The notes under the pieces: generated by a model
The model's database searches: none
Seen by the model: only the letters and a program-made list of their open reading frames with translations
What the model was told of the DNA's origin: nothing
Source: Microbulbifer bruguierae
GTDB lineage: Bacteria > Pseudomonadota > Gammaproteobacteria > Pseudomonadales > Cellvibrionaceae
Reading direction: 5' to 3'
DNA: 64,000 nucleotides
Assembly (NCBI RefSeq): GCF_029869925.1
Contig: NZ_CP118605.1
Location: 1,924,001-1,988,000 of the forward strand
Translations under genes and position numbers: made by a program
Shown here: positions 23,206-62,244 of the stretch, piece by piece
How the letters are laid out: each line of letters opens with the position of its first letter
Numbering within the stretch: the first letter of the stretch is position 1

Positions 23206-23316
23206 AGTACTCACGCTTTGCAAAGAGTCGATTTGCGGTTTCGACCGCGCCGGGCACCAAAATACGCCCCACCGATGACAAAACCATGTCAAACAGATGA
23301 CCGCCGAATCCCATGT

Positions 23317-23357
23317 AAAAAAATAGCAGAAAGCCCGGGCACACCTGCTGCCCGGGC
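23317..23357 (-). terminator. Terminator or attenuator after the TonB-dependent receptor gene
   Basis: GCCCGGGCA and TGCCCGGGC form a perfect 9-bp stem with a 7-base loop, followed by TTTCTGCTATTTTTTT on the minus strand. It stands between receptor and phytase, so the phytase may need read-through or its own promoter. Confidence 0.65.
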
Positions 23358-23379
23358 CATCTGCCTGTCAACCCGAAAC

Positions 23380-25971: not shown

Positions 25972-26177
25972 TGCTCCCCGTCCCGTATTTACTGGCGGTT
26001 ATTTTGATGGGGCGCAGGCTAGTCTTGAGATGTGAAAATTTCGTTACGCTTTTTTTAAATTTGTCATATTGCGCCGCTAATCTTGGCGCAACTTGAATCG
26101 GGCACCAGCCCCAGACTCCGAAAACACAGGCGTCCCCCGGTGGTCCCGGCAAAATATTGCAGTCAGGTGAATAATTT

Positions 26178-45134: not shown

Positions 45135-46655
45135 CTATCCCTTCCGATCTGGATTAGACAGCAAAAATACCAGCGGCATGGCCGCAATATTGATCCACAT
45201 CAGCATCTGGAAATCGTTCACATAGGCAATTTCCGCCGCCTGCTGACTGATGGTGTTCATCAGCTCCGCCGGTAGCGCCGAGACCTGGTCCATCGAAGGC
45301 AGTCCCATTCCCGGTGGAATCTGTACCCGCTCCCCCAGCTGCTGCTGATTGATCCACAGATTACGCGTCAGTGCCGCCATTACAATCGACACGCCGATAC
45401 TGCTTCCCAGGTTGCGCGACAGACTGAACAGCGCCGTCGCCTCACCTCGCAGCTGCGGTGCCAGAGTTGCGTAGGCCAGGGTGGAGATGGGCACAAACAC
45501 CAGGCCCAGTCCCAGCCCCTGCAGAATCCCGGTCCAGACCAGATCGTGCTGGCTCACCTGCAGGGTGAAACCGCTCATCACCCACAGGGAAATGGAAATC
45601 AGCCCCATTCCCAGCAGGATTAGCCCGCGCGCATCAAAGCGCTGCATCAGCTTGCTCACCAGCATCATCGAGATCATGGTGCCAATCCCGCGGGGCATCA
45701 GCACCATGCCGGTGGTCATCACCGGGTAACCCTTCCACTGCTGCAGAAACGGCGGCAGCAGGGCCATGGTGGCCAGCAGTGTGATCCCAACAACAAATAT
45801 GAACACCACCCCGGACACATAATTGCGATCGCGGAACAGGTCCAGAGACAGGAACGGGGTCGGCGTGGTGCGCGAGTGCACCACAAACAGGTACACGCCC
45901 AGTGCGGTAGCGATGGCGTAGAGCTGGATTTCCAGTGCCTCGAACCAGTCCACCAGTTCGCCGCGGTCCAGCAACATCTGCAGCGCGCCCACCGCCAGAG
46001 CCAACAGCGCAAACCCCAGGGCGTCAAAGCGCTGTTTGCGGGTCTCGCTCTCCGGCACAAAGAAGTAGATCCCGAGCATGGACAGGATGCCGAACGGCAG
46101 ATTGATGTAGAACACCCAGCGCCAGGAGTAGTACTCCGTCAGCCAGCCGCCGAGAGTCGGGCCCAGCACCGGTCCGATCATCACCCCCACGCCCCAGATT
46201 CCCATGGCGGAAGCGTGCTTCTCCTTTGGATAGGTATCGAGCAGTGTCGCCTGGGACAGCGGCACCAGAGACGCGCCGAACACCCCCTGCAACAGCCGCC
46301 ACAGCACCATCTCGTTGAGACTGCTGGCCTGGCCACAGAGCATGGAAGTAATGGTGAACCCGCCCACGGACCAGAGGAACAGGCGACGACGACCGAAGCG
46401 CTGGGCCATATAACCCACCGGCGCGGTCATAATCGCGGCGGCCACGATATAGGAGGTGAGTACCCAGGTGATCTGGTCACTGCTGGCGCCGAGGCTGCCC
46501 TGCATATGCGGCAGGGCCACGTTGGCGATGGTGGTATCCAGCACCTGGATAATGGTGGCCAGCATCACACTGAGCGCGACCAGCGCCTCGCTGGTCGATG
46601 CCTTTGCCTGTGGTGCCGGCGCGGACAGGGCACCGGGCTGTAGCGTCTGGCTCAT
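45135..46655 (-). CDS. emrB: MFS multidrug transporter, DHA2/EmrB family
   Basis: A 506-residue transporter with 14 predicted helices and DHA2 motifs (VLDTTIANVALPHMQGSL, GRRRLFLWSVGGF, GVMIGPVLGPTLGGWL). It works with a membrane fusion protein and an outer-membrane channel to expel hydrophobic compounds by proton antiport. ATG at 46655 is preferred; the frame starts at a TTG seven codons earlier. It is the third gene of a MarR-EmrA-EmrB operon. No TolC-like gene lies beside it. Confidence 0.92.
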   Translation of the reverse strand: MSQTLQPGALSAPAPQAKASTSEALVALSVMLATIIQVLDTTIANVALPHMQGSLGASSDQITWVLTSYIVAAAIMTAPVGYMAQRFGRRRLFLWSVGGFTITSMLCGQASSLNEMVLWRLLQGVFGASLVPLSQATLLDTYPKEKHASAMGIWGVGVMIGPVLGPTLGGWLTEYYSWRWVFYINLPFGILSMLGIYFFVPESETRKQRFDALGFALLALAVGALQMLLDRGELVDWFEALEIQLYAIATALGVYLFVVHSRTTPTPFLSLDLFRDRNYVSGVVFIFVVGITLLATMALLPPFLQQWKGYPVMTTGMVLMPRGIGTMISMMLVSKLMQRFDARGLILLGMGLISISLWVMSGFTLQVSQHDLVWTGILQGLGLGLVFVPISTLAYATLAPQLRGEATALFSLSRNLGSSIGVSIVMAALTRNLWINQQQLGERVQIPPGMGLPSMDQVSALPAELMNTISQQAAEIAYVNDFQMLMWINIAAMPLVFLLSNPDRKG

Positions 46656-46700
46656 GTGCGCTGCGTCCTTTTCCAATCCGGCTGGCAGTACGACACGGGG

Positions 46701-46772
46701 TACATCGGTCGGTACATCGGTGCATACATCGGTGCATACATCGGTGCATACATCGGTGCATACATCGGTGCG
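46701..46772. repeat. 12-bp tandem repeat, six copies, between emrA and emrB
   Basis: Six copies of TACATCGGTGCA (first ends TCGG, last ends TGCG) fill most of the 135-base gap between emrA and emrB. The unit length is a multiple of three and all three plus frames stay open, but no translation start fits. Confidence 0.95.
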
Positions 46773-46790
46773 TACAACTCAAAGAACAAC

Positions 46791-47918
46791 TTAAAGTACG
46801 ACGCGGTGGTCATCGGCGGCGCGGGCAGAAACCAGTTTCTTGTCTTCGGTGGTGTCGATGATCACCTCCGCGCTCATGCCCGCGCGCAGCACCGGAGCCT
46901 CCTCTGCCGGCAGCAGGCGCAGGCGAACCGGCACCCGCTGTACCACTTTCACCCAGTTGCCACTGGCATTCTGCGGCGGAATCAGCGCGAACTCACTGCC
47001 GCTGGCGCCGCTCAGGCTTTCGACCAGCGCCTGGAATTTCACCCCGGGATAGGCATCTACGGTCACTTCCGCCTGTTGCCCCGCGTGCACGTGCTCGAGC
47101 TGGGTTTCCTTCAGGTTGGCTTCGATCCACATATCTTCGGTGCTGAGCAGTGTCACCACCGACAGACCCATCGCCGCCATTTCACCGACCTGCGGCGCTT
47201 CGTTGGCGATAACACCGGAAACCGGTGCGGTAATACGGGTACGGGAAAGCTGGTAGCGCGCTTTATCCAGTTTCGCCTGCGCCACCATCACGTCAGCCTG
47301 CTGTTCCAGCGGCACCTGGGAATTGCCCCCCAGCTCCGCGCGCAGGCTGGCGAGTTTCTCGGTGTTGACCGCAATCCGGGCGCGGGCCTGATCCAACTTC
47401 TGGCGGGATTCGTCCAGCTGCGACTCCGACAGCGCCACCTTGCCAAGTTTTTCATTGCGGTCCAGTTGGCGACGGAAAAATTCCGCATCGCTCTGGGCCT
47501 GTTGCAGTTCCGCTTCCGCTTCGGCGTACTCCGCCTGGCGCGCATGCACCTGGTTTTTGACCTGGGCGAGATGGGCCTCGGCCTCCGCCACCGCCAGGCG
47601 GAAGGCGGTGTCATCCAGGCGCACCAGCAGATCCCCTTTATTCACGTGCTGGTTCGCGCGAATCGGCACCTCGGCGACAATGCCGCTCACTTCCAGCGCA
47701 AGCGCAAACTTGTCCGCTTTCACATAGGCGTTTTCCGTGTGTACGCTGCTGTCAGCACCCCAGATGCACCAACCGGCAACCGCGCCGGCGATCAAAATCC
47801 CCAGAGTAAAACCCGCACGTCGGGATTTCAGCTTCTGCACCATGTTGTTTTCCTTCCGATTGTTTTCTGCGGGCAGTTGGTTTTCCACAGGCGGTTTGTT
47901 TCCCAGTGCGTTAGTCAC
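46791..47918 (-). CDS. emrA: Membrane fusion protein, EmrA/HlyD family
   Basis: A 375-residue periplasmic adaptor with one N-terminal membrane helix (about residues 36-53: FTLGILIAGAVAGWCIWG), a lipoyl-like half motif (VSGIVAEVPIRANQHVNKGD), a long alpha-hairpin (about 95-200) and the second lipoyl half and beta-barrel. It bridges EmrB to an outer-membrane channel. The GTG at 47918 has GGAG seven bases upstream and overlaps the MarR stop; an internal ATG at 47843 with its own GGAAGG is an alternative start. Confidence 0.92.
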   Translation of the reverse strand: MTNALGNKPPVENQLPAENNRKENNMVQKLKSRRAGFTLGILIAGAVAGWCIWGADSSVHTENAYVKADKFALALEVSGIVAEVPIRANQHVNKGDLLVRLDDTAFRLAVAEAEAHLAQVKNQVHARQAEYAEAEAELQQAQSDAEFFRRQLDRNEKLGKVALSESQLDESRQKLDQARARIAVNTEKLASLRAELGGNSQVPLEQQADVMVAQAKLDKARYQLSRTRITAPVSGVIANEAPQVGEMAAMGLSVVTLLSTEDMWIEANLKETQLEHVHAGQQAEVTVDAYPGVKFQALVESLSGASGSEFALIPPQNASGNWVKVVQRVPVRLRLLPAEEAPVLRAGMSAEVIIDTTEDKKLVSARAADDHRVVL

Positions 47919-48360
47919 ACACCGTCTCCTCGCGACTCAGATTCTCGCGCACCCGACTCAGTAAATTCTGCAATTGCTGCTGTTCTTCCTGCGACAGTCC
48001 CTCCAGCGCCTCGGTGCGAGTCTGCTCGGCGAGACCGTGCAGGGCCTGTAACACCGGAGCGGCGGCCCCGGTGAGATAAATGCGGTAGCAGCGCCGGTCC
48101 TGGGGATCCTGGCGGCGCTCCACCAGCCCCTCCGCCTGTAACAGGTCTATCTGGCGGGTCAGGCTGATGGGGGCCACGTCCATACGCTCGGCCAGTTCTG
48201 CCTGCTTCATGCCCTGGTTCTTGTGCAGGATCCAGAGCACCTGCCAGCGGGCGCGGGTCAGGCCGTGGGTTTTCGCGCGGCGATCGAAATTGCGCTTTAG
48301 CAAGCGAGCGGCGGTGTGCAGCTCAAACCCCAAATGCGCTGCGATATCAGATTTATTCAC
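47911..48360 (-). CDS. MarR family transcriptional regulator
   Basis: A 149-residue winged-helix repressor (LTRARWQVLWILHKNQGMKQ, ELAERMDVAPISLTRQIDLL, and the wing RRQDPQDRRCYRIYLT). It overlaps emrA by eight bases and probably controls the efflux operon and itself, like EmrR. The start is GTG. A palindrome suitable as its operator lies 41-54 bases upstream. Confidence 0.93.
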   Translation of the reverse strand: MNKSDIAAHLGFELHTAARLLKRNFDRRAKTHGLTRARWQVLWILHKNQGMKQAELAERMDVAPISLTRQIDLLQAEGLVERRQDPQDRRCYRIYLTGAAAPVLQALHGLAEQTRTEALEGLSQEEQQQLQNLLSRVRENLSREETVCD

Positions 48361-48570: not shown

Positions 48571-49950
48571 TCAGCGACCGATACGGCGCAGTGCCGCAGA
48601 GGAGAAGTCCCGACGGTTGACCTTACTGCCCCACTCCATGAATTTCGGCTCTTCGTTGGCCAGGCCGGTCACCAGGTAGCGGCCGGAATCCAGGTCGTGG
48701 AACACTTCGGCGGACATCCAGGGGGTGCCCACGTCATAGAACATCACGTTGTGGCCCTCGCCCAGGCGCCACAGATTGCCACGGCCGTCGTAGTGATCCA
48801 CCACCGATACACCCCAGGTGTCCTCATCCAGGAACATGGTGCGCTTGGCGTAGATATGGCGCTCGCCGTCTTTCAGGGTCGCTTCCACTTCCCATACCCG
48901 GTGCAGCTCATAACGCAGGTACTCCGGGTTCAGGTGGCCGGCCTGTACGATGTCGTCGTACTTCAGAGAGGTGTCCAGCAGCTTGTAGTCGTTGTACGGG
49001 ATGTACAGCTCGCGCTTGCCGATGAGTTTCCACTCGTACTTGTCTGGAGCACCGTTGTACATATCCAGGTTGTCCGCGGTGCGCAGACCATCGGTACCCT
49101 CGGCGGGGCCGTCGTAAGCCACGTTCGGGGCGCGGCGTACGCGGCGCTGGCCGGCGTTGTATACCCAGGCACGGCGGGCTTCTTTTACCTGGTCCACGGT
49201 CTCGTGCACCAGCAGCGCAGTACCCGTGAGTCGCGCCGGTGCGGTGATCTGCTGCAGGTAATAGAACAGCACATTGTCATCGCCCTGGGCGTCGCGGCCA
49301 CCGTCGAGGAATTCCGGCCACACCAGCTGGTCGGTGAACTTCACCGGCACAAAAGAGCCATCGGCCTGTACCGGGATTGCGGTGGTGTTGCGGATCGCGG
49401 AGCCACCGCGGTAGCGGGTGATGTGGTTCCACACCACTTCCAGCGCGCTCTGGGGCATCGGGAAGGGAATCACGGTATCGAAATTGGTGACGCCGTTGCC
49501 GCCGGACACCAGCTCGGCATTGAGGGCGTTTTTCTTCACCACGTCGTACAGGGACTCCGGGTAGGCCGCGGAGCGACGGGTCTGGTACACCGGCATGCGG
49601 TATTCCGGGTACTTCTTGAACATGGCGATCTGGCCCGGGCTCAGCTTGTCTTTGTACTGGTCCAGGTTGGCATTGGTGATCTCGAACAGCGGCTTGTCGC
49701 CCGCGAAGGGGTCGACCGGACGACCGGGATCGCTGCTGTTTTTGGCCACTTCAGCACCGCTGATCAGGCCGCCGGTCCAGGCCGGGATGGAACCGTCCGC
49801 ATTGCCCGCCTTTACCGCACCCAGTGGGGTCAGGGAATCACCCAGTTTGGCCGCGTCCTGCTCCGATACCTTGGCGAACGCGGTGCCGCTCATCAAAGAC
49901 ACCAGCAGCAGCGCGGCTGCGGTCATTTTCTTGTTGATTGTCGGGTTCAT
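48571..49950 (-). CDS. DUF1329 domain protein (LolB-like, periplasmic/outer membrane)
   Basis: A 459-residue exported protein: signal peptide of about 26 residues (AAALLLVSLMSGTAFA), then the DUF1329 fold with segments LGDSLTPLGAVKAGNADG, IPAWTGGL, WNHITRYRGGSA, and HVWEVEATLKDGERHIY-type core near residue 350. DUF1329 is structurally related to lipoprotein-handling LolB/LppX barrels and is presumed to bind lipids. It is 11 bases downstream of a DUF1302 gene with its own AAGAGG. Function unproven. Confidence 0.85.
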   Translation of the reverse strand: MNPTINKKMTAAALLLVSLMSGTAFAKVSEQDAAKLGDSLTPLGAVKAGNADGSIPAWTGGLISGAEVAKNSSDPGRPVDPFAGDKPLFEITNANLDQYKDKLSPGQIAMFKKYPEYRMPVYQTRRSAAYPESLYDVVKKNALNAELVSGGNGVTNFDTVIPFPMPQSALEVVWNHITRYRGGSAIRNTTAIPVQADGSFVPVKFTDQLVWPEFLDGGRDAQGDDNVLFYYLQQITAPARLTGTALLVHETVDQVKEARRAWVYNAGQRRVRRAPNVAYDGPAEGTDGLRTADNLDMYNGAPDKYEWKLIGKRELYIPYNDYKLLDTSLKYDDIVQAGHLNPEYLRYELHRVWEVEATLKDGERHIYAKRTMFLDEDTWGVSVVDHYDGRGNLWRLGEGHNVMFYDVGTPWMSAEVFHDLDSGRYLVTGLANEEPKFMEWGSKVNRRDFSSAALRRIGR

Positions 49951-49961
49951 ATCGCTACCTC

Positions 49962-51803
49962 TTAATAGGAGACTTTGAAGCTCAGGGACACGAAGTCCTT
50001 GTCTTCCAGGATGTTGTGGCTGCCGCCGTCAAACGCGGTGACGCCGAGGGTGGCGCTGTACTTCATCTTGTACACGGCTTCCACTGCCAGGCCGAGGGAC
50101 TTGGCACCCTCGTGGAACTGCTGGCCCGGCTCCGCCGAATAGCCGTTCACATCGTGTGACCAGGCCAGGGTCGGATTCAGGGAAATGCCGGCGAATACGT
50201 TCGGATACTCCAGCGCAGCGCGCGCGCGGTAACCCCAGGCGGTGTCGGTAACGTAACCTTCGGCGCTGCAGTCGCCATCGATCGCCCCTAGAGCCACCAG
50301 ATTGCTGCACGTAGTGCCGTTGGGCAGGGTGAAGTCGCCGAGGCCAAACACGGTGTTGCGGCCGTAGCGCTGGTCGGAGTCTTCCACCCCGTCCAGCATG
50401 GACACGCCCACTTCACCGATCAGCGCCAGACGCGAGGCACCCAGTACGCGGTCGAAGAACTTGATCGCGGTGACCTGCAGCTGGGTCTGGTCGAATGTGT
50501 CATAACCCCGGACCACCTCACCGTAACCAACCTCATTCACGCGACTGGTAAACGCGAACATCGGGTTTTCGGACAGTGCGGCATTGAGGATGTCGGAGCC
50601 GTTGACCTGCAGCGGGGTGTCCGGCTTGTAGGACAGCTCACCGGACAGCGCCACGCCGGCCACATTGGTGGCGAAGCTCAGGCCGTACACTTTCAGGTCT
50701 TCGGGGAAGCTGACCATGTATGCCGGGTTATACACGGAGAGCGCACCGAATTCAGGGTGCGAAGAAGGCACAAAGACCGGAGCGCCCTCGCCGACTGCTG
50801 CAGGGATCGCCGTGCGAATCGCACTGACATAAGGCATGCGCGAGTGAATATTCATAAAGTAGACACCGAACTCGGTATCGTTCAGTGCCGCTGCGTAGTA
50901 GCGCGCGGCAAAGCCGTACTGGCCGCCGTCTTCAGGCTCGATATCGTCCTGACGCTGGGCGTACAGGCCCCCGGCTACGGCCATCGCATCCGGAGCCATA
51001 ATGGTGACGCGATCACAGCCATCGGCAGCGTAGTCGGTGGAAGAGAAGTAGGTACCACAACCTTCGATCTGGGTCTTCTCCCACTCGTACTGGTAAAAAC
51101 CTTCCACACTCAGGTTTTCGGTGACGCCGGCGTTGAAGTAGGCCATGCCCACCGGCAGCAGGCCTTCCTTCAGCTCTGCGCCCGGGCGGCGGAATGCGCT
51201 TACGTCCACCGGGTTGATGGCGTTGATACCGCCCTGGATAAAGGTGCTCTCACCCCAGCTCAATACCTGACGCCCCAGGCGCAGGCTGACCGGCATCTCG
51301 GCGACTTCGGTATCCAGGTAGGTGTAGGCGTCCAGCAGCGCGAGCCCGGAGAATTTCGCAAACTCGGAGAAGCCTTCGTCTGAAAGCGGCTCACCGGCAG
51401 CGTAGTTGTTGGAGTTGGTGCCGTGGGGGCGGTTTTCCCCTTCCAGCTCCTTGTCGTACCAGTACTTGACCCGCATAAACACACCGAAGTTGTCTTTCGA
51501 CAGTTCGATATCGTGTACACCCTTGATGATCTTCGAGAAGGTCTCGCCTTCTTCAAAGTTCAGGTTGCCGTCGTCAGTGGTGCTGGTGAAACCCTCACCG
51601 CCGTTCAGATAACCGATAAAGCGCGGATCCGCTTCGTTCAGACGCCAGCTCGCACCGACATCCAGCTGCGAGCTGATACGCAAAGAGATATCTTCATCCG
51701 CACCGAAGTAAAACTCGGCCGCCTGTGCAGGCACTACTGCTGCGCTGATCGCCGCAGCGAGCAGAGCTCGACTGAAACCAGATACATTTATTCTTATAGC
51801 CAT
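49962..51803 (-). CDS. DUF1302 domain protein (outer-membrane beta-barrel)
   Basis: A 613-residue exported protein: signal peptide MAIRINVSGFSRALLAAAIS to about residue 29, followed by alternating beta-strand segments rich in aromatic and acidic residues and ending with KDFVSLSFKVSY, a terminal aromatic typical of barrels. The DUF1302 family accompanies DUF1329 and RND proteins in many Proteobacteria. Characteristic segments include LRISSQLDVGASWRLNEAD and LRLGRQVLSWGESTFIQGG. Role: a candidate outer-membrane channel or receptor for hydrophobic compounds. Confidence 0.85.
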   Translation of the reverse strand: MAIRINVSGFSRALLAAAISAAVVPAQAAEFYFGADEDISLRISSQLDVGASWRLNEADPRFIGYLNGGEGFTSTTDDGNLNFEEGETFSKIIKGVHDIELSKDNFGVFMRVKYWYDKELEGENRPHGTNSNNYAAGEPLSDEGFSEFAKFSGLALLDAYTYLDTEVAEMPVSLRLGRQVLSWGESTFIQGGINAINPVDVSAFRRPGAELKEGLLPVGMAYFNAGVTENLSVEGFYQYEWEKTQIEGCGTYFSSTDYAADGCDRVTIMAPDAMAVAGGLYAQRQDDIEPEDGGQYGFAARYYAAALNDTEFGVYFMNIHSRMPYVSAIRTAIPAAVGEGAPVFVPSSHPEFGALSVYNPAYMVSFPEDLKVYGLSFATNVAGVALSGELSYKPDTPLQVNGSDILNAALSENPMFAFTSRVNEVGYGEVVRGYDTFDQTQLQVTAIKFFDRVLGASRLALIGEVGVSMLDGVEDSDQRYGRNTVFGLGDFTLPNGTTCSNLVALGAIDGDCSAEGYVTDTAWGYRARAALEYPNVFAGISLNPTLAWSHDVNGYSAEPGQQFHEGAKSLGLAVEAVYKMKYSATLGVTAFDGGSHNILEDKDFVSLSFKVSY

Positions 51804-51985
51804 TGCTGTTCTCCCATTCATACATGGGAAAACTTAAGGCGAGAGGAGGCAAGGGTCGATCCCGTTCAATGTGCGCAATATGCCAGATTCTTATCCGTAC
51901 ATGCCGCACAGGGAGGTAAATGGACCAAGAGGGATAACCAGGGCTTGAGCAAAGACAGAAGCGAGTACGCCAGTCACGGCAGACG

Positions 51986-52009
51986 GGGACTGGCGTCACA
52001 TCCAGTCCC
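51986..52009 (-). terminator. Candidate terminator after the AraC-type gene
   Basis: GGGACTGG and CCAGTCCC form a perfect 8-bp stem with an 8-base loop, 20 bases beyond the regulator stop. No T-tract follows on the minus strand, so this is weak. Confidence 0.35.
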
Positions 52010-52028
52010 GTTTAAACAGAAACACCCA

Positions 52029-53066
52029 TTAATTTAACTGGTTCACAATTCGGTTTTCGCGGTAGTCGCCCGGCGTCTGCCCGGTCCAGCGCTTGAAGGC
52101 GCGATTGAAATTAGTGACCGAAGAAAAGCCCACCAGGTAGCCAATTTCCCCAAGGGAGAGGTTCGACTGCCCCATATATTTCACCGCCAGTTGCTTGCGG
52201 GTTTGCTCGAGGATGTCCTTGTAGCTGGTACCCAGTTCGCTGAGCCGGCGCTGCAGATTCCGCAGGCTCATCCCCAGAGCCTCCGCCACCTCAGTCTGCG
52301 CCGGCGCGCTGCCCGGCAGGTAATCGTAGATTTTGCAACGGATCAGATTGACCAGATCACTCTTGTCCACCCGCGCCAGGTATTCATCCAGCATGGCCTC
52401 GTGGCTGCGTGCGAGAAAACTGTTGTGGGTCAGGAGCTTGCGTGTTGCCAGCTCGCGGGGGAATACCACCGCGTTGTAGCTGTGGCCGTAATGAATCTCG
52501 CAACCAAAAAATATCTGCAGCGGGTCGACCTGCTGACTGGGCTGCTCGGCTTCCAGATAGACACACAGCGGTGTCAGGTCACTGGAGACCAGATCTCGCG
52601 CGAACTTTACCAGGGATGCGAGAAACACCTCGGCCTCGCGCATGCCCAGCCCCGGCACCACCCGCTGCTCAATACGCACCGGGCGTATGCCAAATTCAAA
52701 GCCACCGGCAACCTCTTGCAGGCGCACATTGCACAGACTGGAAACAATGCGCCGGTAACGCACGATGTAATCGAGACCGTCGCACAGGCTGGGAGCGGAC
52801 ATCATCGCGTAGCCCAGGACATGCAACATACTGGGATGGAAGTTTTCCGCCATCATCACCCGCATGTCGTGCTCCGGCGCCCGGGCGCTGGCGTAGTTCA
52901 GCAGCTCCACCAGTTTGCTGAGGGTCACCCTGGATTCCAGATCCCCGAGTTCCTCCCACTGAATTTCGCAGGCAGCCAACGCTTCCGGCACATCGATATC
53001 GCAAGCCTGCATGGCTCTGACCATCAGGATCAGCCAGCCGCTCATTACCGCGTGTTCAAAATTCAC
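52029..53066 (-). CDS. AraC family transcriptional regulator
   Basis: A 345-residue regulator with an N-terminal effector domain of the Arabinose-binding-like (PF12625-type) class and a C-terminal double helix-turn-helix (ALGMSLRNLQRRLSELG, IGYLVGFSSVTNFNRAFKRW, then TGQTPGDYRENR). This subgroup often controls lipid and hydrocarbon genes. The start is GTG at 53066 with AGGA seven bases upstream; the frame extends 85 codons further to 53321, but that part has no family counterpart. It separates the DUF1302 operon from the divergent propeller-RND genes, so it may regulate both. Confidence 0.88.
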   Translation of the reverse strand: MNFEHAVMSGWLILMVRAMQACDIDVPEALAACEIQWEELGDLESRVTLSKLVELLNYASARAPEHDMRVMMAENFHPSMLHVLGYAMMSAPSLCDGLDYIVRYRRIVSSLCNVRLQEVAGGFEFGIRPVRIEQRVVPGLGMREAEVFLASLVKFARDLVSSDLTPLCVYLEAEQPSQQVDPLQIFFGCEIHYGHSYNAVVFPRELATRKLLTHNSFLARSHEAMLDEYLARVDKSDLVNLIRCKIYDYLPGSAPAQTEVAEALGMSLRNLQRRLSELGTSYKDILEQTRKQLAVKYMGQSNLSLGEIGYLVGFSSVTNFNRAFKRWTGQTPGDYRENRIVNQLN

Positions 53067-53332
53067 TTTTTTATCCTGACTTTTATGACAGTGAATGCAT
53101 TTTCGCGCCAGTCTATCAACACTCAGTTCATGATGCCGTAACAATGTCGCCTGCTGGCGGCAGAATTTGTGACTCCAGGGCCTTTTGAATTCACCGCTAA
53201 GATACCAACCGCGCAGAGCTAAGGTGAGTGCCTCCTGCGGGCTCGGATAATGATTTGGCGCGTATGACATATCGAGACGCGAATCGGCTACCAGATAATC
53301 GGGCGGACGAATAATAAGCACACAAGCGACTT

Positions 53333-54469
53333 ATGAGACTTTTCCGACTTTTTATCCCCCGACTCCTGCTGCCAGCGCTGATGGCTTCCCAGCCCCTGAT
53401 GGCCAGCGCAAACGTAGAGCTACTAAATACCCCGGCGCTGCACAGCACCCGCGCCGCCCACAGCGTCATCACTAACCTGCAACCCCTGAATGACGGCTAC
53501 CTGCTGACCGGCGAGCGCGGCCTGTTGCTGCAGTGGCGGGCCGATGGCCACTGGCAACAGCAGGATTCCCCGGTGAGCGTTGGCCTCACCGCAGTCACCC
53601 TGCTTGCGGACGGCAGTGCCGTGGCCGTGGGCCAGGATGCTGCGATCCTGCGCCGCACCCGCGATGGCGCCTGGCAGAAAGTGTTTGACGGCTACGACCT
53701 GAGCCGCCTGCAGATCAACGCCCAGGAAGCGCGCCGCGACCAGCTGCAGCAGCTTATCGACGATACCGGTAACAATGCCGAAGACGACGCCGATATCGAA
53801 GAACTGGAATACCAGCTGGAAGAGCTGGAGTTCGCCCTCGAAGACAGTCAGGCCGAACTGGAAAGCGGGCCCAACAAACCGCTGCTCGACATCGTCGTCG
53901 CCGGCGGCAACCGTCTGTACGCCATCGGCGCCTACGGCACCCTGCTGCGCAGTGACGACGGCGGCGACAGCTGGCAGCTGCGCAGCGCCAGTCTCGATAA
54001 TCCCGATCGCTTCCACCTCAGCGCCATCACCCGCAGTGACGACGGCAGCCTGTACATCGTCGGCGAGAGCGGCCTCGGCTTCGTTTCCCGCGACGGCGGC
54101 GACAGCTGGGAAACCATGGATTTGCCCTACGACGGCAGCCTGTTTGGCATCGTCAGCCAGGCGGGCTCCGGCAACCTGGTGGCCTTTGGCCTGCAGGGAC
54201 ACGTGCTGGTGTCCCGCGATGGCGGCAACAGCTGGCAGCACCACAAGGTAGAGGCCGGTGCCAGTCTGCTGGGTGGCACCATCGACGATAGCGGCCGCGT
54301 CGTGCTGGTGGGCCACGGCGGCCTGATTGCCAGCTTCGCGATCGCGGAGCCCGCAGTAATTTCCGTACGCAAGCACCCCTCTGGCGCCGCCTTTTCCGCG
54401 GTCGCCGTACAAGGTGAACAGCTGATTCTGGCGGGCCAGTTCGGCGTCACCGCGTGGAACATGAACTGA
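53333..54469 (+). CDS. BNR/YCF48-type beta-propeller protein, exported, with coiled-coil insert
   Basis: A 378-residue exported protein: signal peptide of about 26 residues (MRLFRLFIPRLLLPALMASQ), then propeller blades with Asp-box motifs (SDDGGDSWQLR, SRDGGDSWETMD, SRDGGNSWQHH). An acidic, leucine-rich segment at residues 124-182 (IEELEYQLEELEFALEDSQA) breaks the blade series and is predicted to form a coiled coil. YCF48/BNR propellers act in assembly and binding. The gene is 13 bases upstream of an RND transporter, and such pairs recur with DUF1302/DUF1329. Function unproven. Confidence 0.85.
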   Translation: MRLFRLFIPRLLLPALMASQPLMASANVELLNTPALHSTRAAHSVITNLQPLNDGYLLTGERGLLLQWRADGHWQQQDSPVSVGLTAVTLLADGSAVAVGQDAAILRRTRDGAWQKVFDGYDLSRLQINAQEARRDQLQQLIDDTGNNAEDDADIEELEYQLEELEFALEDSQAELESGPNKPLLDIVVAGGNRLYAIGAYGTLLRSDDGGDSWQLRSASLDNPDRFHLSAITRSDDGSLYIVGESGLGFVSRDGGDSWETMDLPYDGSLFGIVSQAGSGNLVAFGLQGHVLVSRDGGNSWQHHKVEAGASLLGGTIDDSGRVVLVGHGGLIASFAIAEPAVISVRKHPSGAAFSAVAVQGEQLILAGQFGVTAWNMN

Positions 54470-54482
54470 GGTAGTGGCAAGC

Positions 54483-56945
54483 ATGAGTAATACATCCCCG
54501 AATCAACAAGCTGCCGCGCCCGCCTCCCGGGTACAGGCATTTTTCGAATCCCTGGTCTTCGGCCAGCGCGCACTGGCGCTGTCTGTCTTGTCACTGCTTC
54601 TGGTCTTCCTCAGCTGGCAGGGCCTGCAGGTGCGCCCCGAGGCCAGCTTCACCAAGATGATTCCCGGCAACCACGAGTTCATCAATAACTACATGGACTA
54701 CCGCCAGGAACTCGCGGACCTCGGCAACGTGGTGCGTATCGTGGTGGAGAGTAAGCAAGGTGACATCTTCACCCCCGAATTCCAGGAAGTGCTGAAGCAG
54801 GTCACCGACGAGGTGTTCTACGTCCCAGGGGTCAATCGCGATGGCATGAAGTCTCTGTGGACACCCAACGTTCGCTGGCAGGAAGTCACCGAGGAAGGCT
54901 TTGTTGGCGGCGCCGTGATTCCCAACGGCTACGATGGCAGTGAGGCCATGCTCGCACGCCTGAAGGCCAACGTGTTCAAATCCGGCCAGGTTGGCGTGCT
55001 GGTGGGTAACGACTTCCGCTCCGCGATCGTGCTGGCACCACTACAGGACGTGAACCCGGAAACCGGACTGCCACTGGATTACCGCGAGCTGTCGGATTTC
55101 CTCGAGCAGAATGTGCGCGACAAATACAGCAGCGATCAGGCGCAGATTCGCATTGTCGGCTTCGCCAAGGTCATCGGTGACCTGATCGACGGCGCGGTGC
55201 AGGTGGTGCTGTTCTTCGTACTCGCGGTACTCATCACCTTCACCCTGCTGTGGCTCTACTCCCGCTGCCTGCGCAGCACCTTTGCAGTGCTCGCCTGCTC
55301 CATCTTTGCGGTGTTCTGCCAGCTGGGTGTGCTCAACCTGCTGGGTTACGGTATCAACCCCTACTCCATGCTGGTGCCCTTCCTGGTGTTCGCCATTGGT
55401 GTCAGCCACGGGGTGCAGATCATCAGCGCCGTAGTGCACAACACCGTGCAGGGTGCCGACAAACTGAACGCGGCCAAACTCGCGTTCCGTTCCCTGTACC
55501 TGGCCGGCATCACCGCGCTGGTGAGCGACGCCATCGGCTTCACCACCCTGATGGTGATCGACATCGGCGTTATCCGCGAACTGGCGATTGCCGCCAGTAT
55601 CGGTGTAGCGGTGATCATCGTCACCAATCTGGTGGCGCTGCCGATCATTGCCAGCTATGTGGGTGTGTCCAAAGGCGGCGTGGCCTATGCGCGTGCGCAA
55701 CAGGACAAGGCCTCGCTGGTGGAGCGCCTTTTCGCACGTTTCGCGCGCCCGCGCCAGGCCAAGGCGATGCTGGCGGTTGCCCTGATTCTCTGCGGTGCCG
55801 GCGCCTACTACGCGCAGTTCATGAAGATCGGCGACCTCGACGCCGGCGCCCCGGAACTGCGCCCGGATTCCCGCTACAACCGTGACAACGCCTACCTGGT
55901 GGCAAACTACAGCACCAGTACCGACGTGTTCGTGGTGATGGCGAAAACCGAAGCCGAGCAGTGCGTGGCCTACAGCAATCTGGTGTGGATGGATCAACTA
56001 TCGGCCCACCTGAGCAATGTGCCGGGCGTGCAGAAGGTCACATCGGTGGCGGACGTCTCCAAGTTCGGCAACTTCGGTATGAACGAGGGCTCGCTGAAAT
56101 GGTACGGCCTCAACCGCAACCAGTTCATCACCAACGCGTCGGTCGCCAAAGCTCCGGAAGGACTGATCAATTCCGAGTGCACCATGGCGCCGGTACTGGT
56201 GTTCCTGAACGATCACAAGGCGGAAACCCTGGATCGCGTGGTCGCCGCGATGCGCGTCTTCAACGCCGAGCGCACTCCAGACTCGGTGGAGTTCCTGCTG
56301 GCCGCCGGCAACGCCGGTATCGAAGCCGCCACCAATGACGTGATCGAAAAGGCACAGACGGAAATGCTGATCTGGGTCTACGGCGTGGTCATCGCCCTGT
56401 GCCTGCTCACCTTCCGCTCGCCGCGCATTGTGCTCGCGGTGGTGCTGCCGCTGATGCTGACGTCCCTGCTGGGCCAGGCGCTGATGACGCTGATGGGCAT
56501 CGGTGTGAAGGTGGCCACCCTGCCGGTGATCGCCCTCGGCGTCGGCATCGGCGTGGACTACGGCATCTACATTTTCAGCAAGGTGCGCGAAGCCCTGGCA
56601 CAAGGCAAAAATCTGGTGGAATCCTACACCTATACCCTGCACCAGACCGGCAAGGCGGTGGCCTTTACCGGAGTGACCCTGGGCATTGGCGTAGCCACCT
56701 GGGTGTTTTCACCGATCAAGTTCCAGGCCGATATGGGCCTGCTGCTGACCTTCATGTTTCTGTGGAATATGCTCGGTGCGCTGATCCTGGTGCCGGCGAT
56801 TGCCTGGCTGCTGCGGATCGACAACCTGGCCGCCAAGCCCGCAGCGACGGTTGCGCCGGAAGCCGGCGCGGCAGTCGCCGAGACGCCATCTCACAGCGAA
56901 AGCAGCAAAGTTCAAAACGTCCGACTGGAATCAGAACCGGCCTGA
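54483..56945 (+). CDS. RND superfamily transporter (MMPL type)
   Basis: An 820-residue inner-membrane protein with the duplicated RND layout: helix 1 (ALALSVLSLLLVFLSW), a periplasmic loop (about residues 55-220), five helices (about 225-400), helix 7 (about 420), a second periplasmic loop, and five C-terminal helices. Sterol-sensing-like segments are visible (FLVFAIGVSHGVQIIS and VIALGVGIGVDYGIYIFSKV). MMPL/HpnN-type members move lipids. The ATG at 54483 was chosen; a GTG nine bases earlier is too close to its GAGG. Ends with a strong terminator. Confidence 0.92.
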   Translation: MSNTSPNQQAAAPASRVQAFFESLVFGQRALALSVLSLLLVFLSWQGLQVRPEASFTKMIPGNHEFINNYMDYRQELADLGNVVRIVVESKQGDIFTPEFQEVLKQVTDEVFYVPGVNRDGMKSLWTPNVRWQEVTEEGFVGGAVIPNGYDGSEAMLARLKANVFKSGQVGVLVGNDFRSAIVLAPLQDVNPETGLPLDYRELSDFLEQNVRDKYSSDQAQIRIVGFAKVIGDLIDGAVQVVLFFVLAVLITFTLLWLYSRCLRSTFAVLACSIFAVFCQLGVLNLLGYGINPYSMLVPFLVFAIGVSHGVQIISAVVHNTVQGADKLNAAKLAFRSLYLAGITALVSDAIGFTTLMVIDIGVIRELAIAASIGVAVIIVTNLVALPIIASYVGVSKGGVAYARAQQDKASLVERLFARFARPRQAKAMLAVALILCGAGAYYAQFMKIGDLDAGAPELRPDSRYNRDNAYLVANYSTSTDVFVVMAKTEAEQCVAYSNLVWMDQLSAHLSNVPGVQKVTSVADVSKFGNFGMNEGSLKWYGLNRNQFITNASVAKAPEGLINSECTMAPVLVFLNDHKAETLDRVVAAMRVFNAERTPDSVEFLLAAGNAGIEAATNDVIEKAQTEMLIWVYGVVIALCLLTFRSPRIVLAVVLPLMLTSLLGQALMTLMGIGVKVATLPVIALGVGIGVDYGIYIFSKVREALAQGKNLVESYTYTLHQTGKAVAFTGVTLGIGVATWVFSPIKFQADMGLLLTFMFLWNMLGALILVPAIAWLLRIDNLAAKPAATVAPEAGAAVAETPSHSESSKVQNVRLESEPA

Positions 56946-57031: not shown

Positions 57032-59281
57032 CTACTTCCTCTGCACTTCCACCTTGTCCACTTTCTGGAATCCGCGGGGCAGCTTGTTGCCGCGACGGCC
57101 GCGTTCGCCCTGGTAGTGTTCCAGCTCCGAGACCTTGATCTTGGTGTGGCGCTTGCCGGCGTGGATCACCAGCTGGTCGCCGGCTTCCAGCACCGCAACG
57201 CCGACGAGGATTTCCTCGCGGCTGGCGGCGCGGGCGGACGGGATATTGATGATCTTGTTGCCCTTACCCTTGGCCAGTTCCGGCAGCTCCGTTACCGGGA
57301 ACACCAGCATGCGCCCCTCGCTGGAGACCGCCGCCAGCAGCGCTGCCGCGGGGTTGGTAATTTCCTGCGGCGGCAACACGCGGGCATTGCTGGGCAGGGA
57401 CAGCATGGCCTTACCCGCCTTGTTGCGGGACTGCAGGTCGGCGAACTTGGCGATAAAGCCGTAGCCCGCGTCACTTGCCAGCAACACCTTCTGCTCGTCA
57501 GCGCCCATCAGCAGGCCTTCAAAGGTGGCGCCGGAGGGCGGGTTGATGCGCCCGGACAGCGGCTCACCCTGGCCCCGCGCAGACGGCAGGGTGTGGGAGG
57601 CGATGGCGTAGCTGCGGCCGGTACTGTCGAGCAGCAGCGCCATCTGGTTGCTCTTGCCGTGGGCGGCGTACTTGAAGCTGTCGCCGGCCTTGTAGCTGAG
57701 CGAAGTGGGGTCGATATCGTGACCCTTGGCCTGACGAATCCAGCCCTTGTCCGACAGCACCACGGTAATCGGATCACTGGTGAGCAGGTCGGTCTCGCTG
57801 AAGGCTTTCGCTTCTTCGCGCTCGACGATCGGGGAGCGGCGGTCATCGCCAAACTCGTCGGCCGCCGCCAGCAGCTCCTTCTTGATCAGGGTCTTGAGGC
57901 GGCGCTCGCTTTCCAGGGTTTTGGTGAGCATATCGCGCTCTTTTTCCAGCTCTGCCTGCTCGCCGCGGATCTTCACTTCTTCCAGGCGCGCCAACTGGCG
58001 CAACTTGGTGTCGAGCACGTATTCCGCCTGCACATCGGACAGACCGAAGCGCTCCATCAGCGCCGCCTTGGGCTCGTCGTGGGTGCGGATGATCTCGATC
58101 ACTTCATCGATGTTCAGGAACGCGATCAGCAAACCGTCCAACAAGTGCAGGCGCTTCTCCACCTTGTCGAGGCGGAACTGCAGGCGGCGCCTTGTGGTGA
58201 CGGTGCGGAAGCTCAGCCACTCGGACAGGATTTTGTCCAGGGACTTCACCTGCGGGCGGCCGTCGATACCGATCATGTTCATGTTGACCCGGTAGCTCCT
58301 CTCCAGGTCAGTGGTGGCGAACAGGTGATTCATCACCTGCTCCAGATCCACCCGATTGGATTTGGGCACGATGACCAGACGGGTCGGGTTTTCGTGGTCG
58401 GATTCATCGCGCAGGTCGCTGACCATCGGCAGCTTCTTCGCCTGCATCTGCGCGGCGATCTGCTCCAGCACCTTGGAGCCGCTGGCCTGGTACGGCAGCG
58501 CGGTGATGACGATATCGCCATCCTCCTTGGTCCACACCGCACGCATTTTCACCGAGCCCTTGCCGGTCTCGTACATCTTGTGCAGGTCTGCGCGGGGAGA
58601 AATGATCTCTGCCTCGGTGGGCATATCCGGGCCGTGAATGAACTCGCACAGCTCGCTGACCGTGGCCTTGGGGTTCTCCAGCATATGCACAGTGGCATCC
58701 ACCACCTCGCGCAGGTTGTGCGGGAGTATGTCCGTAGCCATACCCACCGCGATACCGGTGGTGCCGTTCAGCAGGATGTTGGGTACCCGCGCCGGCAGTA
58801 CCGCCGGCTCATCCATGGTGCCATCGAAGTTCGGCTGCCAGTCCACGGTGCCCTGGCCCAGCTCGGACAGCAGCACTTCGGAGTACTTGCCCATGCGGGA
58901 TTCGGTGTAACGCATGGCAGCAAAGGACTTGGGATCGTCCGGGGAGCCCCAGTTGCCCTGGCCGTCCACCAGCGGATAGCGGTAGCTGAACGGCTGCGCC
59001 ATGAGCACCATCGCCTCGTACACGGCGCTGTCGCCGTGCGGATGGTACTTACCGATCACGTCGCCCACGGTGCGCGCGGACTTCTTGTACTTGGCGGTGT
59101 TCTTCAGCCCCAGCTCGCTCATGGCGTAGACAATACGGCGCTGTACCGGCTTCAGGCCGTCGCCGATATTGGGCAGGGCGCGGTCGAGGATCACGTACAT
59201 GGAGTAATCCAGGTACGCCTTCTCGGTGTATTCCGCCAGATGCTGGCGCTCGGAAGCTTCGTAGACAGAGGGCTCGGTCAT
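57032..59281 (-). CDS. parC: DNA topoisomerase IV subunit A
   Basis: A 749-residue type IIA topoisomerase subunit that decatenates daughter chromosomes with ParE. The catalytic tyrosine lies in [15 protein letters not shown] near residue 122. The quinolone region reads [14 protein letters not shown], with the wild-type Ser and Glu at the resistance positions. Segments typical of ParC rather than GyrA include [20 protein letters not shown]. parE is not in this window. Large antisense frames over it are shadows. Confidence 0.97.
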
Positions 59282-60135: not shown

Positions 60136-61662
60136 CTAAGTGCCACTAGCCGAATCATTGGCACACAGTTCCTTCAATTCTGCAGGAATTGGCACATACC
60201 CCACGTCCAATTCTTCTCCCACCATTTTGGAAAGAAATACAAGATCACGGGATATGGCGATTTTTACATCAGAGCGCGTCCCGGCAACCGTTGCGTGATC
60301 AGTCTCGTAAGCATCAACCCCGGTATATTGGTACTCCACACTTCCACAGCTCAGGGAAAGATAATCGGAATCTCTGCCGCTGGAGAATATCGCAAGAACA
60401 TTCTGCTCATTTTTTCGCATCCAGAAGTTGTTCGTATCCATCTCAAGATGACGAACAATCTCTCCCGTGGACGCGTCAAGTTTGTAAACAATCGTGCTGC
60501 CCAACGTAAAATAAATGTGATTGCCCACGACAACGCTCGTCAAGCTGGTGCCGCCTTCCCGTTCGAATGCTGTGTCATTAACCTGGTCACCGTTGTAATA
60601 CCTCAGGCTTAATGCATTCGGATCTTCATAATGGTAAAAGATGGCGACCACATCACCATCAGCACTCACATAATCAAGATTCGCTTCCGTATCCAGCAAT
60701 GGCTCTGCTACCGCCTCTGCAACCGAAGTAAGCCGGTAAACCATGGAATACTGTGTGGGCGTAGAGTAATAATCCTCATACCCTACGAATATTCCAGTAT
60801 TTTTCATGCGGCGATTGAAACTGCCCGAACGAGGTTGAATTTTTTCACCGGTTACCGAAGAAACGATGGCCTCGGTCACCTGCGGACTTCCCAATTCAAA
60901 CAGGGAGTAATATTCGCTTGATCCTACAGCGTCATTTATCAGCGAAGCGTGGATGACATAATCTTTCCCGTCGAGGCGGTAAATCCCCAGATCCCCCTTG
61001 CCGTACCGGTCGGGGTTGGTATTGAACGACGAGATTTGTTCGGAAGTCACACTGTAGCCATCGTATCGGTTGTATTGCCATCCACTGAACCCACCGGTTG
61101 GATAAGTAGTGAATATCGTATTTTCTCCCAACATGCCGTAGTCATTCGACCTTATCGAATACCCGTTGTAAGAATAGCTATAGACAACTTGATAGCCGTT
61201 GAGATCAACACGACTCACCCGAAACTCATCAAGATCTCCATGTGCGGAATGGAAGATCACATAATCACCGCCGTCCGCCCATTTAATCCGAGCGCCATTA
61301 GGGGCTCCGACAAGACTTGCATGTGGGAAACTGTTAACGGAAACGTAGGCATCATCGAGAGACAGGAACGAACTGCCCCCGGAGCTTGAGCTGGAACCTG
61401 AACTGGAACTTGACCCCGAGCTCGAGCTGGAGCTGGAGCTGGAGCTAGAACTTGAACTAGAACTTGAGCTGGAACTCGAACTGGAACTCGAGCTGGAACT
61501 GGAACTGGAGCTGGAACTGGAGCTGGAACTGGAGCTGGAACTGGAACCACCACCATCTCCTGAACTAGAGCCCCCTCCACCGCAAGCGCTCAATAGCACA
61601 GCAAATAAAACCGTCGCGCATAGAGGCAACTTCGAAGCTGAAAATGGGATTGTTAGATTCAT
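60136..61662 (-). CDS. Surface lipoprotein with polyserine linker
   Basis: A 508-residue lipoprotein: signal MNLTIPFSASKLPLCATVLF to the lipobox LLSAC, then Gly-rich and Ser-rich linkers, including 43 consecutive serines (61417-61545), then two S5 blocks separated by glycine. From about residue 100 to the end lies a domain of roughly 400 residues with repeated beta-strand, Tyr/Asp-rich segments (HASLVGAPNGARIKWADGGD, YVSADGDVVAIFYHYEDP), which looks like a propeller. I recognise no catalytic motif. Polyserine linkers of this type typify exported proteins of Saccharophagus-like bacteria. Function unknown; surface sensing or binding is a guess. Confidence 0.85.
   Translation of the reverse strand: MNLTIPFSASKLPLCATVLFAVLLSACGGGGSSSGDGGGSSSSSSSSSSSSSSSSSSSSSSSSSSSSSSSSSSSSSSSSSSSGSSSSSGSSSSSGGSSFLSLDDAYVSVNSFPHASLVGAPNGARIKWADGGDYVIFHSAHGDLDEFRVSRVDLNGYQVVYSYSYNGYSIRSNDYGMLGENTIFTTYPTGGFSGWQYNRYDGYSVTSEQISSFNTNPDRYGKGDLGIYRLDGKDYVIHASLINDAVGSSEYYSLFELGSPQVTEAIVSSVTGEKIQPRSGSFNRRMKNTGIFVGYEDYYSTPTQYSMVYRLTSVAEAVAEPLLDTEANLDYVSADGDVVAIFYHYEDPNALSLRYYNGDQVNDTAFEREGGTSLTSVVVGNHIYFTLGSTIVYKLDASTGEIVRHLEMDTNNFWMRKNEQNVLAIFSSGRDSDYLSLSCGSVEYQYTGVDAYETDHATVAGTRSDVKIAISRDLVFLSKMVGEELDVGYVPIPAELKELCANDSASGT
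61417..61545 (-). repeat. (TCN AGY)n serine-codon repeat
   Basis: Forty-three serine codons alternate strictly between the TCN and AGY boxes. This forms an imperfect hexanucleotide tandem repeat inside the polyserine lipoprotein gene. Confidence 0.95.
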
Positions 61663-62244
61663 ATGCATTCCTGGATACAGTCTTGATTACCGAGCTGTCA
61701 AAAGACGACTTTTTGCCGTGGGCGAATGATCGAAACCCAGGGAGGAAACAGGTCCAGAAATGAGTACGAAATTACCGGTAACAGTCAACAATCTATCAAT
61801 TGCGAGAATGCAAAACCAAGATATTGCAGGGTCTGCACTTCAGCAGGCTACCGCGCCCAAAAGCCACTCCATAGCAGATAGAACTTTATCATTTGGCAAA
61901 ACGGCAACTCCATGCCCCCAAAGGGCTATATGACCAACCCTTTAGTACTAAACTCTTGTCCTTGTTACTTGACGATTACAAGGTGCAGGACGAGCCAACG
62001 GCAGGCTAGCGCAGGCGAAACAGAAGAATCACCGTGTCGTTTAACAAACACAGGATCGAAACATTTCACTGAACGAACAATAGCGAAAATTGCACCGGCA
62101 CCGAATTGGGCGCAGTAGTGGTGAGCAAACTGCAGCGTTTGGACACCGAATACAGGAGGATATGGCACTATGTCCACACCGATCACAACAGCTATTGGGG
62201 TCATCAACTGACTCCAAAACCAGGAAAAATAGAGAAGAACGTCC
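61663..62244. other. 582-base stretch without a confident gene
   Basis: Lower GC than its surroundings. It contains a possible small peptide frame (see 61760-61933) and a few short open frames without Shine-Dalgarno or recognisable products. The promoters of the polyserine gene (minus) and the ABC transporter genes (plus) should lie here, but I could not fix them. Confidence 0.5.
61760..61933 (+). CDS. Possible 57-residue peptide
   Basis: An open frame beginning MSTKLPVTVNNLSIARMQ and ending CPQRAI. The ATG has a GGGAGG about 17 bases upstream, which is rather far. The first 40 residues are polar and Gln/Ala-rich. I recognise no family. It may be spurious; a small secreted or leader peptide is possible but unsupported. 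Confidence 0.25.
   Translation: MSTKLPVTVNNLSIARMQNQDIAGSALQQATAPKSHSIADRTLSFGKTATPCPQRAI

Follow-up and report, generated by a model that had tools for sequence, protein, structure and literature searches.

A divergent AmeABCD-like gene set

We analysed a stretch of 64,000 nucleotides from Microbulbifer bruguierae (hereafter the window), which covers positions 1,924,001-1,988,000 of the single 4.48-Mb contig NZ_CP118605.1. An earlier note on this DNA had placed five open frames between window positions 48571 and 56945, and all five are present (Table 1). They encode a DUF1329 and a DUF1302 protein (DUF, domain of unknown function), an AraC-family regulator that reads the same way as these two, and, divergently, a β-propeller and an RND transporter of the MMPL type. 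All five family matches were well over the Pfam cut-offs. DUF1329 and DUF1302 are each present once at full length in the genome, and each has one further, weak match, both of them at a second locus.

The same families make up AmeABCD of Castellaniella defragrans 65Phen, which consists of a DUF1302 outer-membrane protein, a DUF1329 protein of the LolA superfamily, a COG4447 propeller of the photosystem II assembly factor type and an HAE3 RND protein, and which sits in a catabolic island for hydrophobic compounds (PMC6394551). All four components were found in the window. Unlike AmeABCD, in which ameABC lie directly upstream of ameD in one direction, the window has two divergent units with the AraC gene between them, and we therefore file the set as a variant, AmeABCD-like. 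The likeness is one of component families rather than of a joint tree of the RND protein and AmeD, whose lineage is a distinct branch within HAE3 according to its authors (PMC6394551). The kind of system is already described, both as AmeABCD and in a published trans-envelope model for Pseudomonas putida; the arrangement and the host are new. Also new are the insertion site, the branching with Colwellia and Paraglaciecola, the shared operator-like site, the neighbouring enzymes, the fusion locus and the Ser-His pair of the RND protein, all described below.

Structures were predicted for DUF1302 and DUF1329, and we read their barrel and LolA matches as evidence of fold, not of function. The DUF1302 model has 18 long strands by our own count from the DSSP string, and all 50 matches listed in each fold search were outer-membrane channels or complexes containing them. 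The C-terminal residue is F or Y in 23 of 24 DUF1302 sequences. The predicted barrel fold and the C-terminal aromatic residue are both consistent with the barrel-like protein that the earlier note had described. For DUF1329, which it had called LolB-like, the modelled structure has the LolA/LolB fold and is of the LolA type. Both families are still listed in Pfam as being of unknown function.

The NCBIfam models nearest to the RND protein were HAE3, actII and HpnN, and the best of these, TIGR00921 for HAE3, scored 130.6 bits, below its cut-off of 351.9. The structures matched were MmpL3, MmpL4, MmpL5 and HpnN; models of HpnN, BstA and sterol-sensing proteins matched weakly. The Asp-Tyr pairs of MmpL3 relay protons, and D695-Y696 of the RND protein aligns with the pair of both MmpL3 halves. 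In its first half, S311-H312 stands where Asp-Tyr is expected, a place matched by eye (LVFAIGVSHGVQII vs LGVGIGVDYGIYI), and the MmpL3-type trait of Asp-Tyr in both halves is lacking. Ser-His occupies the first-half position in 101 of 102 RND rows, the lone exception presumably being the very distant row L060_427. The protein may act like an MmpL pump, but it forms a branch of its own.

The propeller matched the Ycf48-like structure 5oj5 with an E-value of 2.3e-14. Its residues ~120-183 form an inserted, charged segment resembling a helical hairpin, which a crude rule recovered in 34 of 98 propeller sequences and which was absent from the Pseudomonas rows inspected. Judging from its sequence, this insertion is possibly a docking element akin to the hairpins of membrane-fusion proteins.

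Two gene starts probably need correction. For the RND protein, the probable start is the ATG that follows directly on the listed GTG (54474). The AraC protein is probably shorter than its open frame of 52029-53321, with the true start at GTG 53066, because the relative in panel genome G002 begins at the matching residue; about 266 bp therefore remain for the divergent promoter.

Table 1. Genes and operator-like sites of the set (window positions)
Feature	Position	Strand	Description
DUF1329 periplasmic LolA-fold carrier (putative), AmeB counterpart	48571..49950	-	459 aa; signal-peptide-like N terminus; 527.5 bits
DUF1302 outer-membrane β-barrel (predicted), AmeA counterpart	49962..51821	-	619 aa; signal-peptide-like N terminus; C-terminal Tyr; 562.7 bits
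Operator-like site GGATAAGAATCTGGC	51882..51896	-	60 bp upstream of DUF1302 start
AraC-family regulator	52029..53066	-	Arabinose_bd (108.7 bits) + HTH_18 (71.2 bits); likely GTG start 53066; open frame to 53321
Operator-like site GGATAATGATTTGGC	53245..53259	+	73 bp upstream of propeller start
Exported YCF48/PSII_BNR β-propeller, AmeC counterpart	53333..54469	+	378 aa; PF14870 (PSII_BNR), 50.4 bits
MMPL/HAE3-like RND transporter, AmeD counterpart	54474..56945	+	~820 aa; PF03176 (MMPL), 88.6 bits

Recurrence of the families and their chromosomal setting

The distribution of the families was followed in a panel of 58 genomes including the window's own, 37 from the same genus and 21 from other families at one genome each. 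RND relatives were counted at E<=1e-60 and the two DUF families as full-length matches with E under 1e-50, which omitted 11 genomes whose DUF1329/LolA-like matches were all partial and 4 whose DUF1302 matches were all weak. The RND protein occurred in 18 of the 58 genomes (4/37 in the genus, own genome included; 14/21 in other families), and every one of these 18 also carried full-length DUF1329 and DUF1302. Among the 40 genomes without it, DUF1329 was found in one (G038, 75% complete) and DUF1302 in two (G038 and G023). Fisher tests gave 4e-14 for DUF1329 and 4e-13 for DUF1302 over all 58 genomes, and 1.3e-4 for each over the 21 other families.

We also inspected 100 loci around RND genes. 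Twenty came from panel genomes, out of 26 RND matches; those without fetched surroundings were the window itself, two G049 pieces and two distant copies (27-28%) in G039 and G057, and a second G056 piece falls within an already fetched stretch. The other 80 were named loci, the best 80 of 590 by RND sequence alone; they are redundant (42 titled Pseudomonas), and Castellaniella is not among them. An iterated hidden Markov model search found the propeller at 99 loci, DUF1329 at at least 47 and DUF1302 at at least 27, the DUF counts being minima as flanks end at 10 kb or at the contig end. Complete sets numbered 25, of which 20 were co-directional (DUF1302-DUF1329-propeller-RND), 4 divergent and 1 arranged otherwise; the divergent sets comprise three from the genus and one from Colwellia. 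Pseudomonas loci mostly hold propeller-RND alone, as would be predicted from the separate numbering of PP_2018/2019 and PP_0765/0766. These results bear out the earlier note's statement that the families recur together, far beyond chance. It had named chance-level co-occurrence, or predicted structures with neither a lipid cavity in DUF1329 nor a barrel in DUF1302, as refuting its proposal; we found co-occurrence and a modelled DUF1302 barrel.

Two loci stood apart. At L055:3-6551, four DUF1329 genes lie in tandem beside one DUF1302 and an RND gene, and no propeller was found within the 13.8-kb stretch. L144:5779-13381, from G023, a genome without full-length DUF1329 or RND, has two DUF1302 genes near weak AraC matches and genes that look dehydrogenase-like from their N termini.

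The set is inserted between marR-emrAB (45135-48360) and parC (57032-59281), both of which also occur in non-carriers and lie outside the set. We excluded marR-emrAB from the set, as it is present in six of eight non-carriers examined. At parC, three of these eight have marR directly beside it (138-178 bp between matches), three have other cargo of ~6-8 kb, and two have no emrAB-marR in the stretch examined. From this comparison we conclude that the set is an accessory element, inserted where the content varies within the genus. The marR-parC interval itself (L151, L155, L156) is a variable site with unrelated cargo across species of the genus.

The nearest named relatives of the RND protein are five Microbulbifer proteins (81-89%). 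In a quick tree of 61 rows with loci up to L099, the four RND proteins from the genus group together (SH-aLRT 100). Colwellia and Paraglaciecola are the first to join them (100), followed by Idiomarina (100), and the four stand apart from the RND proteins of their own order. This tree, together with the empty sites, argues for transfer. GC composition was uninformative as transfer evidence (set 0.604, window 0.583, flanking genes 0.61-0.63).

A second locus of the same genome (770,032-774,674; L005:6033-10675) encodes a 1083-aa MMPL RND protein with a C-terminal LolA_like domain (175.6 bits). The fusion gene is directly followed by a gene for a 462-aa DUF1302-like barrel and preceded by MarR and GST-like genes. 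G042 has a homologous fusion/barrel pair (58% and 41% identity), and G017, G025 and G049 have frames of 1,053-1,078 aa with the same match pattern as judged from coordinates. TOL_3187/TOL_3188 of Thalassolituus oleivorans have the same make-up, MMPL-LolA with a porin-like neighbour; they differ from the window set in that RND and carrier are fused, and neither a separate DUF1329 nor a propeller is described for them (PMC6304351). They are distant relatives of the window set. TOL_3187 was 42-fold up on n-C28 alkane relative to n-C14 and Tween 80, and TOL_3188 was expressed exclusively on n-C28 (PMC6304351). We take the natural RND-LolA fusion as a sign that a carrier of the LolA type acts directly at the pump, and it supports direct carrier-pump contact.

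The genes might be unrelated and merely side by side after insertion at a hot spot, as the other cargo in the marR-parC interval of G001, G012 and G018 could suggest. This is very improbable, since the same genes adjoin and co-occur across other families, within the order and outside it, the RND gene has a propeller beside it at nearly every locus, both DUF families follow it across the panel, and a natural fusion joins two of the parts.

A regulator gene and two operator-like sites

The earlier note had described one regulator between two divergent units; the AraC gene is indeed there, and both units carry a common operator-like site. GGATAA-N5-TGGC stands before each of them in the same orientation relative to the gene. 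Both copies are conserved in L041 and L042, and in L043 each has one T to C change.

In a column test over three genomes, the two promoters were identical at 10 of 15 positions, whereas 200 column shuffles never gave more than 8 and the opposite strand gave 7. Tests on single genomes were less clear. Shuffles reached the observed match in 0 of 60 cases for the window and in 4 of 60 for L041; for L042 the best stretch was a different one (5/60). With up to one mismatch allowed, at least two pattern matches arose in 6 of 100 shuffles of the window. The exact pattern occurs twice in the genome, both times at this set, a uniqueness that is partly circular as the pattern was derived from these very sites. 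The neighbouring AraC protein is the obvious candidate for their binder. In G034 no AraC gene was found inside the set, and one adjoins GMC genes on another contig.

Proposed transport role, direction and cargo

Clues to the cargo came from the neighbours of related sets. In G002 the insert runs on between the RND gene and parC with a PF00884 sulfatase, an aldehyde dehydrogenase (ALDH), a GMC oxidoreductase, a second AraC and an SdsA-type alkyl sulfatase. The Colwellia locus L061 has the order GMC - alkyl sulfatase - DUF1329 - DUF1302 - AraC - propeller - RND - ALDH - FadD. In G034 an ALDH gene adjoins the set, and GMC-GMC-AraC-alkyl sulfatase lies on a separate contig that possibly adjoins it. 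The alkyl sulfatases of L061 and G002 are 68-70% and 77% identical, respectively, to that of L143. We take these enzymes to be an alkyl sulfatase, an alcohol dehydrogenase, an aldehyde dehydrogenase and an acyl-CoA ligase, which together would plausibly convert alkyl sulfate to acyl-CoA by way of a fatty alcohol. These neighbours offer a lead to long-chain alcohol-type lipophiles as the substrate class.

Several other candidate clues fell away. GMC relatives (E<=1e-100) occur in 52 of 58 genomes, and GMC was dropped as a general marker; informative are just the near copies in G034 (75% and 68%) and the one in G002, which served as the query. GMC copies beside seven Idiomarina/Pseudidiomarina sets, at 44-49%, are no nearer than general paralogues, and the ALDH cluster of 16 loci is mixed in kind, some members being only 29-31% identical to the L061 ALDH. 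Steroid or sterol transport was dropped as a lead, with weak BstA, HpnN and sterol-sensing matches and no steroid gene among annotated neighbours. The hydrophobic cargo of the earlier note (lipid, sterol-like or hydrocarbon) is thereby narrowed by the neighbours towards the long-chain alcohol type, and its sterol-like part loses ground. Published ties of alkyl sulfatase with DUF1302 or RND were sought in a single search, in which one paper surfaced, on sodium dodecyl sulfate degradation in Yersinia ruckeri; such ties may be published in other wording.

We propose, with a probability of roughly 0.6, that the set is a four-part AmeABCD-type trans-envelope system, controlled by AraC in a divergent arrangement, that transports a lipophile used for growth. 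The system type by itself is highly probable. DUF1302 would be the outer-membrane barrel, DUF1329 the LolA-fold periplasmic carrier, and the RND protein a proton-driven lipid-type pump in the inner membrane to which the propeller would dock the carrier. Together the parts would allow an unbroken route that leads from the barrel via the carrier into propeller-RND. The cargo would be a poorly soluble lipophile on which the cell grows, our best guess being a long-chain primary alcohol or similar aliphatic product, and AraC would switch on both units together through the shared site. The trans-envelope path suggested in the earlier note is supported by co-occurrence, modelled folds and a regulator with a shared site; a model of this kind was already in print.

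Besides AmeABCD, several comparable systems have been described. In P. putida, PP_0765/PP_0766/PP_2018/PP_2019 are needed on Tween 20 by random barcode transposon sequencing, and the Foldy report proposed a transport system from them with AlphaFold contacts, some weak (PMC10866462). As in the window set, a DUF1302 and a DUF1329 protein are accompanied by a periplasmic protein and a transporter of the multidrug-efflux type, but in pairs at two loci rather than in one cluster (PMC10866462). The Pseudomonas loci examined, including L104 of a P. putida strain, hold a propeller-RND pair, and from such loci, rather than from a comparison of sequences, we infer that PP_2018/2019 are that pair. A nanopod-type cluster of the Desulfobacterota ORM2a, expressed on benzene, has DUF1329, YCF48, MMPL and a porin-like protein, and differs in phylum and substrate, in including a universal-stress protein and in that DUF1302 is not named in the available text (PMC13101534). 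Delftia nanopod proteins include a DUF1302 and a DUF1329 with consecutive numbers (PMC3110197). AupA/AupB of Marinobacter hydrocarbonoclasticus, an outer-membrane barrel and an inner-membrane protein, are needed for alkane uptake; AupA is FadL-like, and the main text, as available, leaves RND, MMPL and LolA unmentioned, so that we regard the pair as an analogue, not a shown relative (PMC5989066).

Several observations weigh against our proposal. The structural support comes from single-chain models of DUF1302 and DUF1329. The PF14863 alkyl sulfatase is absent from the window's genome and from G019, and neither has a close GMC orthologue (best 48% and 46%, respectively). Within the genus, PF14863 does not track the set, occurring in 2 of 4 carriers and 24 of 33 non-carriers. 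We therefore excluded alkyl sulfate as a general substrate for the window's strain; one has to suppose that this strain handles a wider range of lipophiles or has a partner enzyme elsewhere. In addition, RND pumps are known chiefly for export.

This last point also favours an efflux pump that expels membrane-toxic solvents or terpenes as a tolerance device, an account that we consider doubtful. Deletion of ameABCD lowers limonene tolerance, which acetate relieves, and the mutant treated with carbonyl cyanide m-chlorophenylhydrazone accumulates more Nile Red, from which its authors argue for efflux (PMC6394551). The mutant is impaired only on non-functionalised, apolar monoterpenes; on acetate and on perillyl alcohol, aldehyde and acid its growth matches that of the wild type (PMC6394551). 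The normal growth on perillyl alcohol fits efflux and speaks against alcohols as cargo there. However, real-time Nile Red efflux was nearly identical in wild type and mutant (PMC6394551). Neither Tween 20, on which the P. putida homologues are required, nor the n-C28 alkane that induces the fused relative is a classical solvent stress, and enzymes of a catabolic type lie next to the set in L041 and L061.

Proteins with a LolA fold carry lipids towards the outside. The set could instead export a self-made lipid (wax ester, surfactant or envelope lipid) in an MmpL/HpnN-like manner, with LolA-like shuttling to the outer membrane. The MmpL and HpnN matches of the RND protein agree with this, as does a pepN-like gene sharing the locus in 29 of 101 gene sets, which places part of the family at a fixed chromosomal position. 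We nevertheless regard lipid export as unlikely: no lipid-biosynthesis gene was recognised among annotated neighbours, those of the closest clade are degradative in type, and the patchy distribution in the genus (4/37) argues against an envelope role there.

Within the proposed transport of a growth lipophile, uptake is slightly favoured over export, given the catabolic type of the linked enzymes and the fact that n-C28 alkane and Tween 20 serve as food and are not solvents that poison membranes. Export carries nearly equal weight, as it is the usual direction of RND pumps and agrees with the Nile Red and tolerance data. A more specific and tentative suggestion, which we hold at low confidence, is an energised importer, in which carrier and propeller would feed long-chain alcohols, released extracellularly by, for example, SdsA-type alkyl sulfatases, from the barrel to the RND protein. 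The latter would work inward or extract the lipophile from the periplasm, and the asymmetric Ser-His/Asp-Tyr relay would be its hallmark.

Elsewhere in the window, phytase, TonB-dependent receptor and PhoX phosphatase genes lie together at 21262-28130 and likely form a phosphate-scavenging cluster. A 510-aa protein (60136-61668) that starts like a lipoprotein and contains several dozen residues of serine-rich linker had no Pfam or NCBIfam match.

Taken together, the set is a real, conserved and functionally coherent system, for which a sharper substrate proposal can now be made. The G002 and Colwellia neighbourhoods point to alkyl sulfates and long-chain alcohols as candidate growth substrates, and the regulator comes with a candidate site. 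The Ser-His signature can serve as a marker for this RND family in sequence data. The work touches the broader question of how Gram-negative bacteria transport water-insoluble food across the periplasm. If true, an importer of this kind would be a rare, perhaps the first, case of uptake by a member of the RND superfamily, and DUF1302 and DUF1329 would gain a function.

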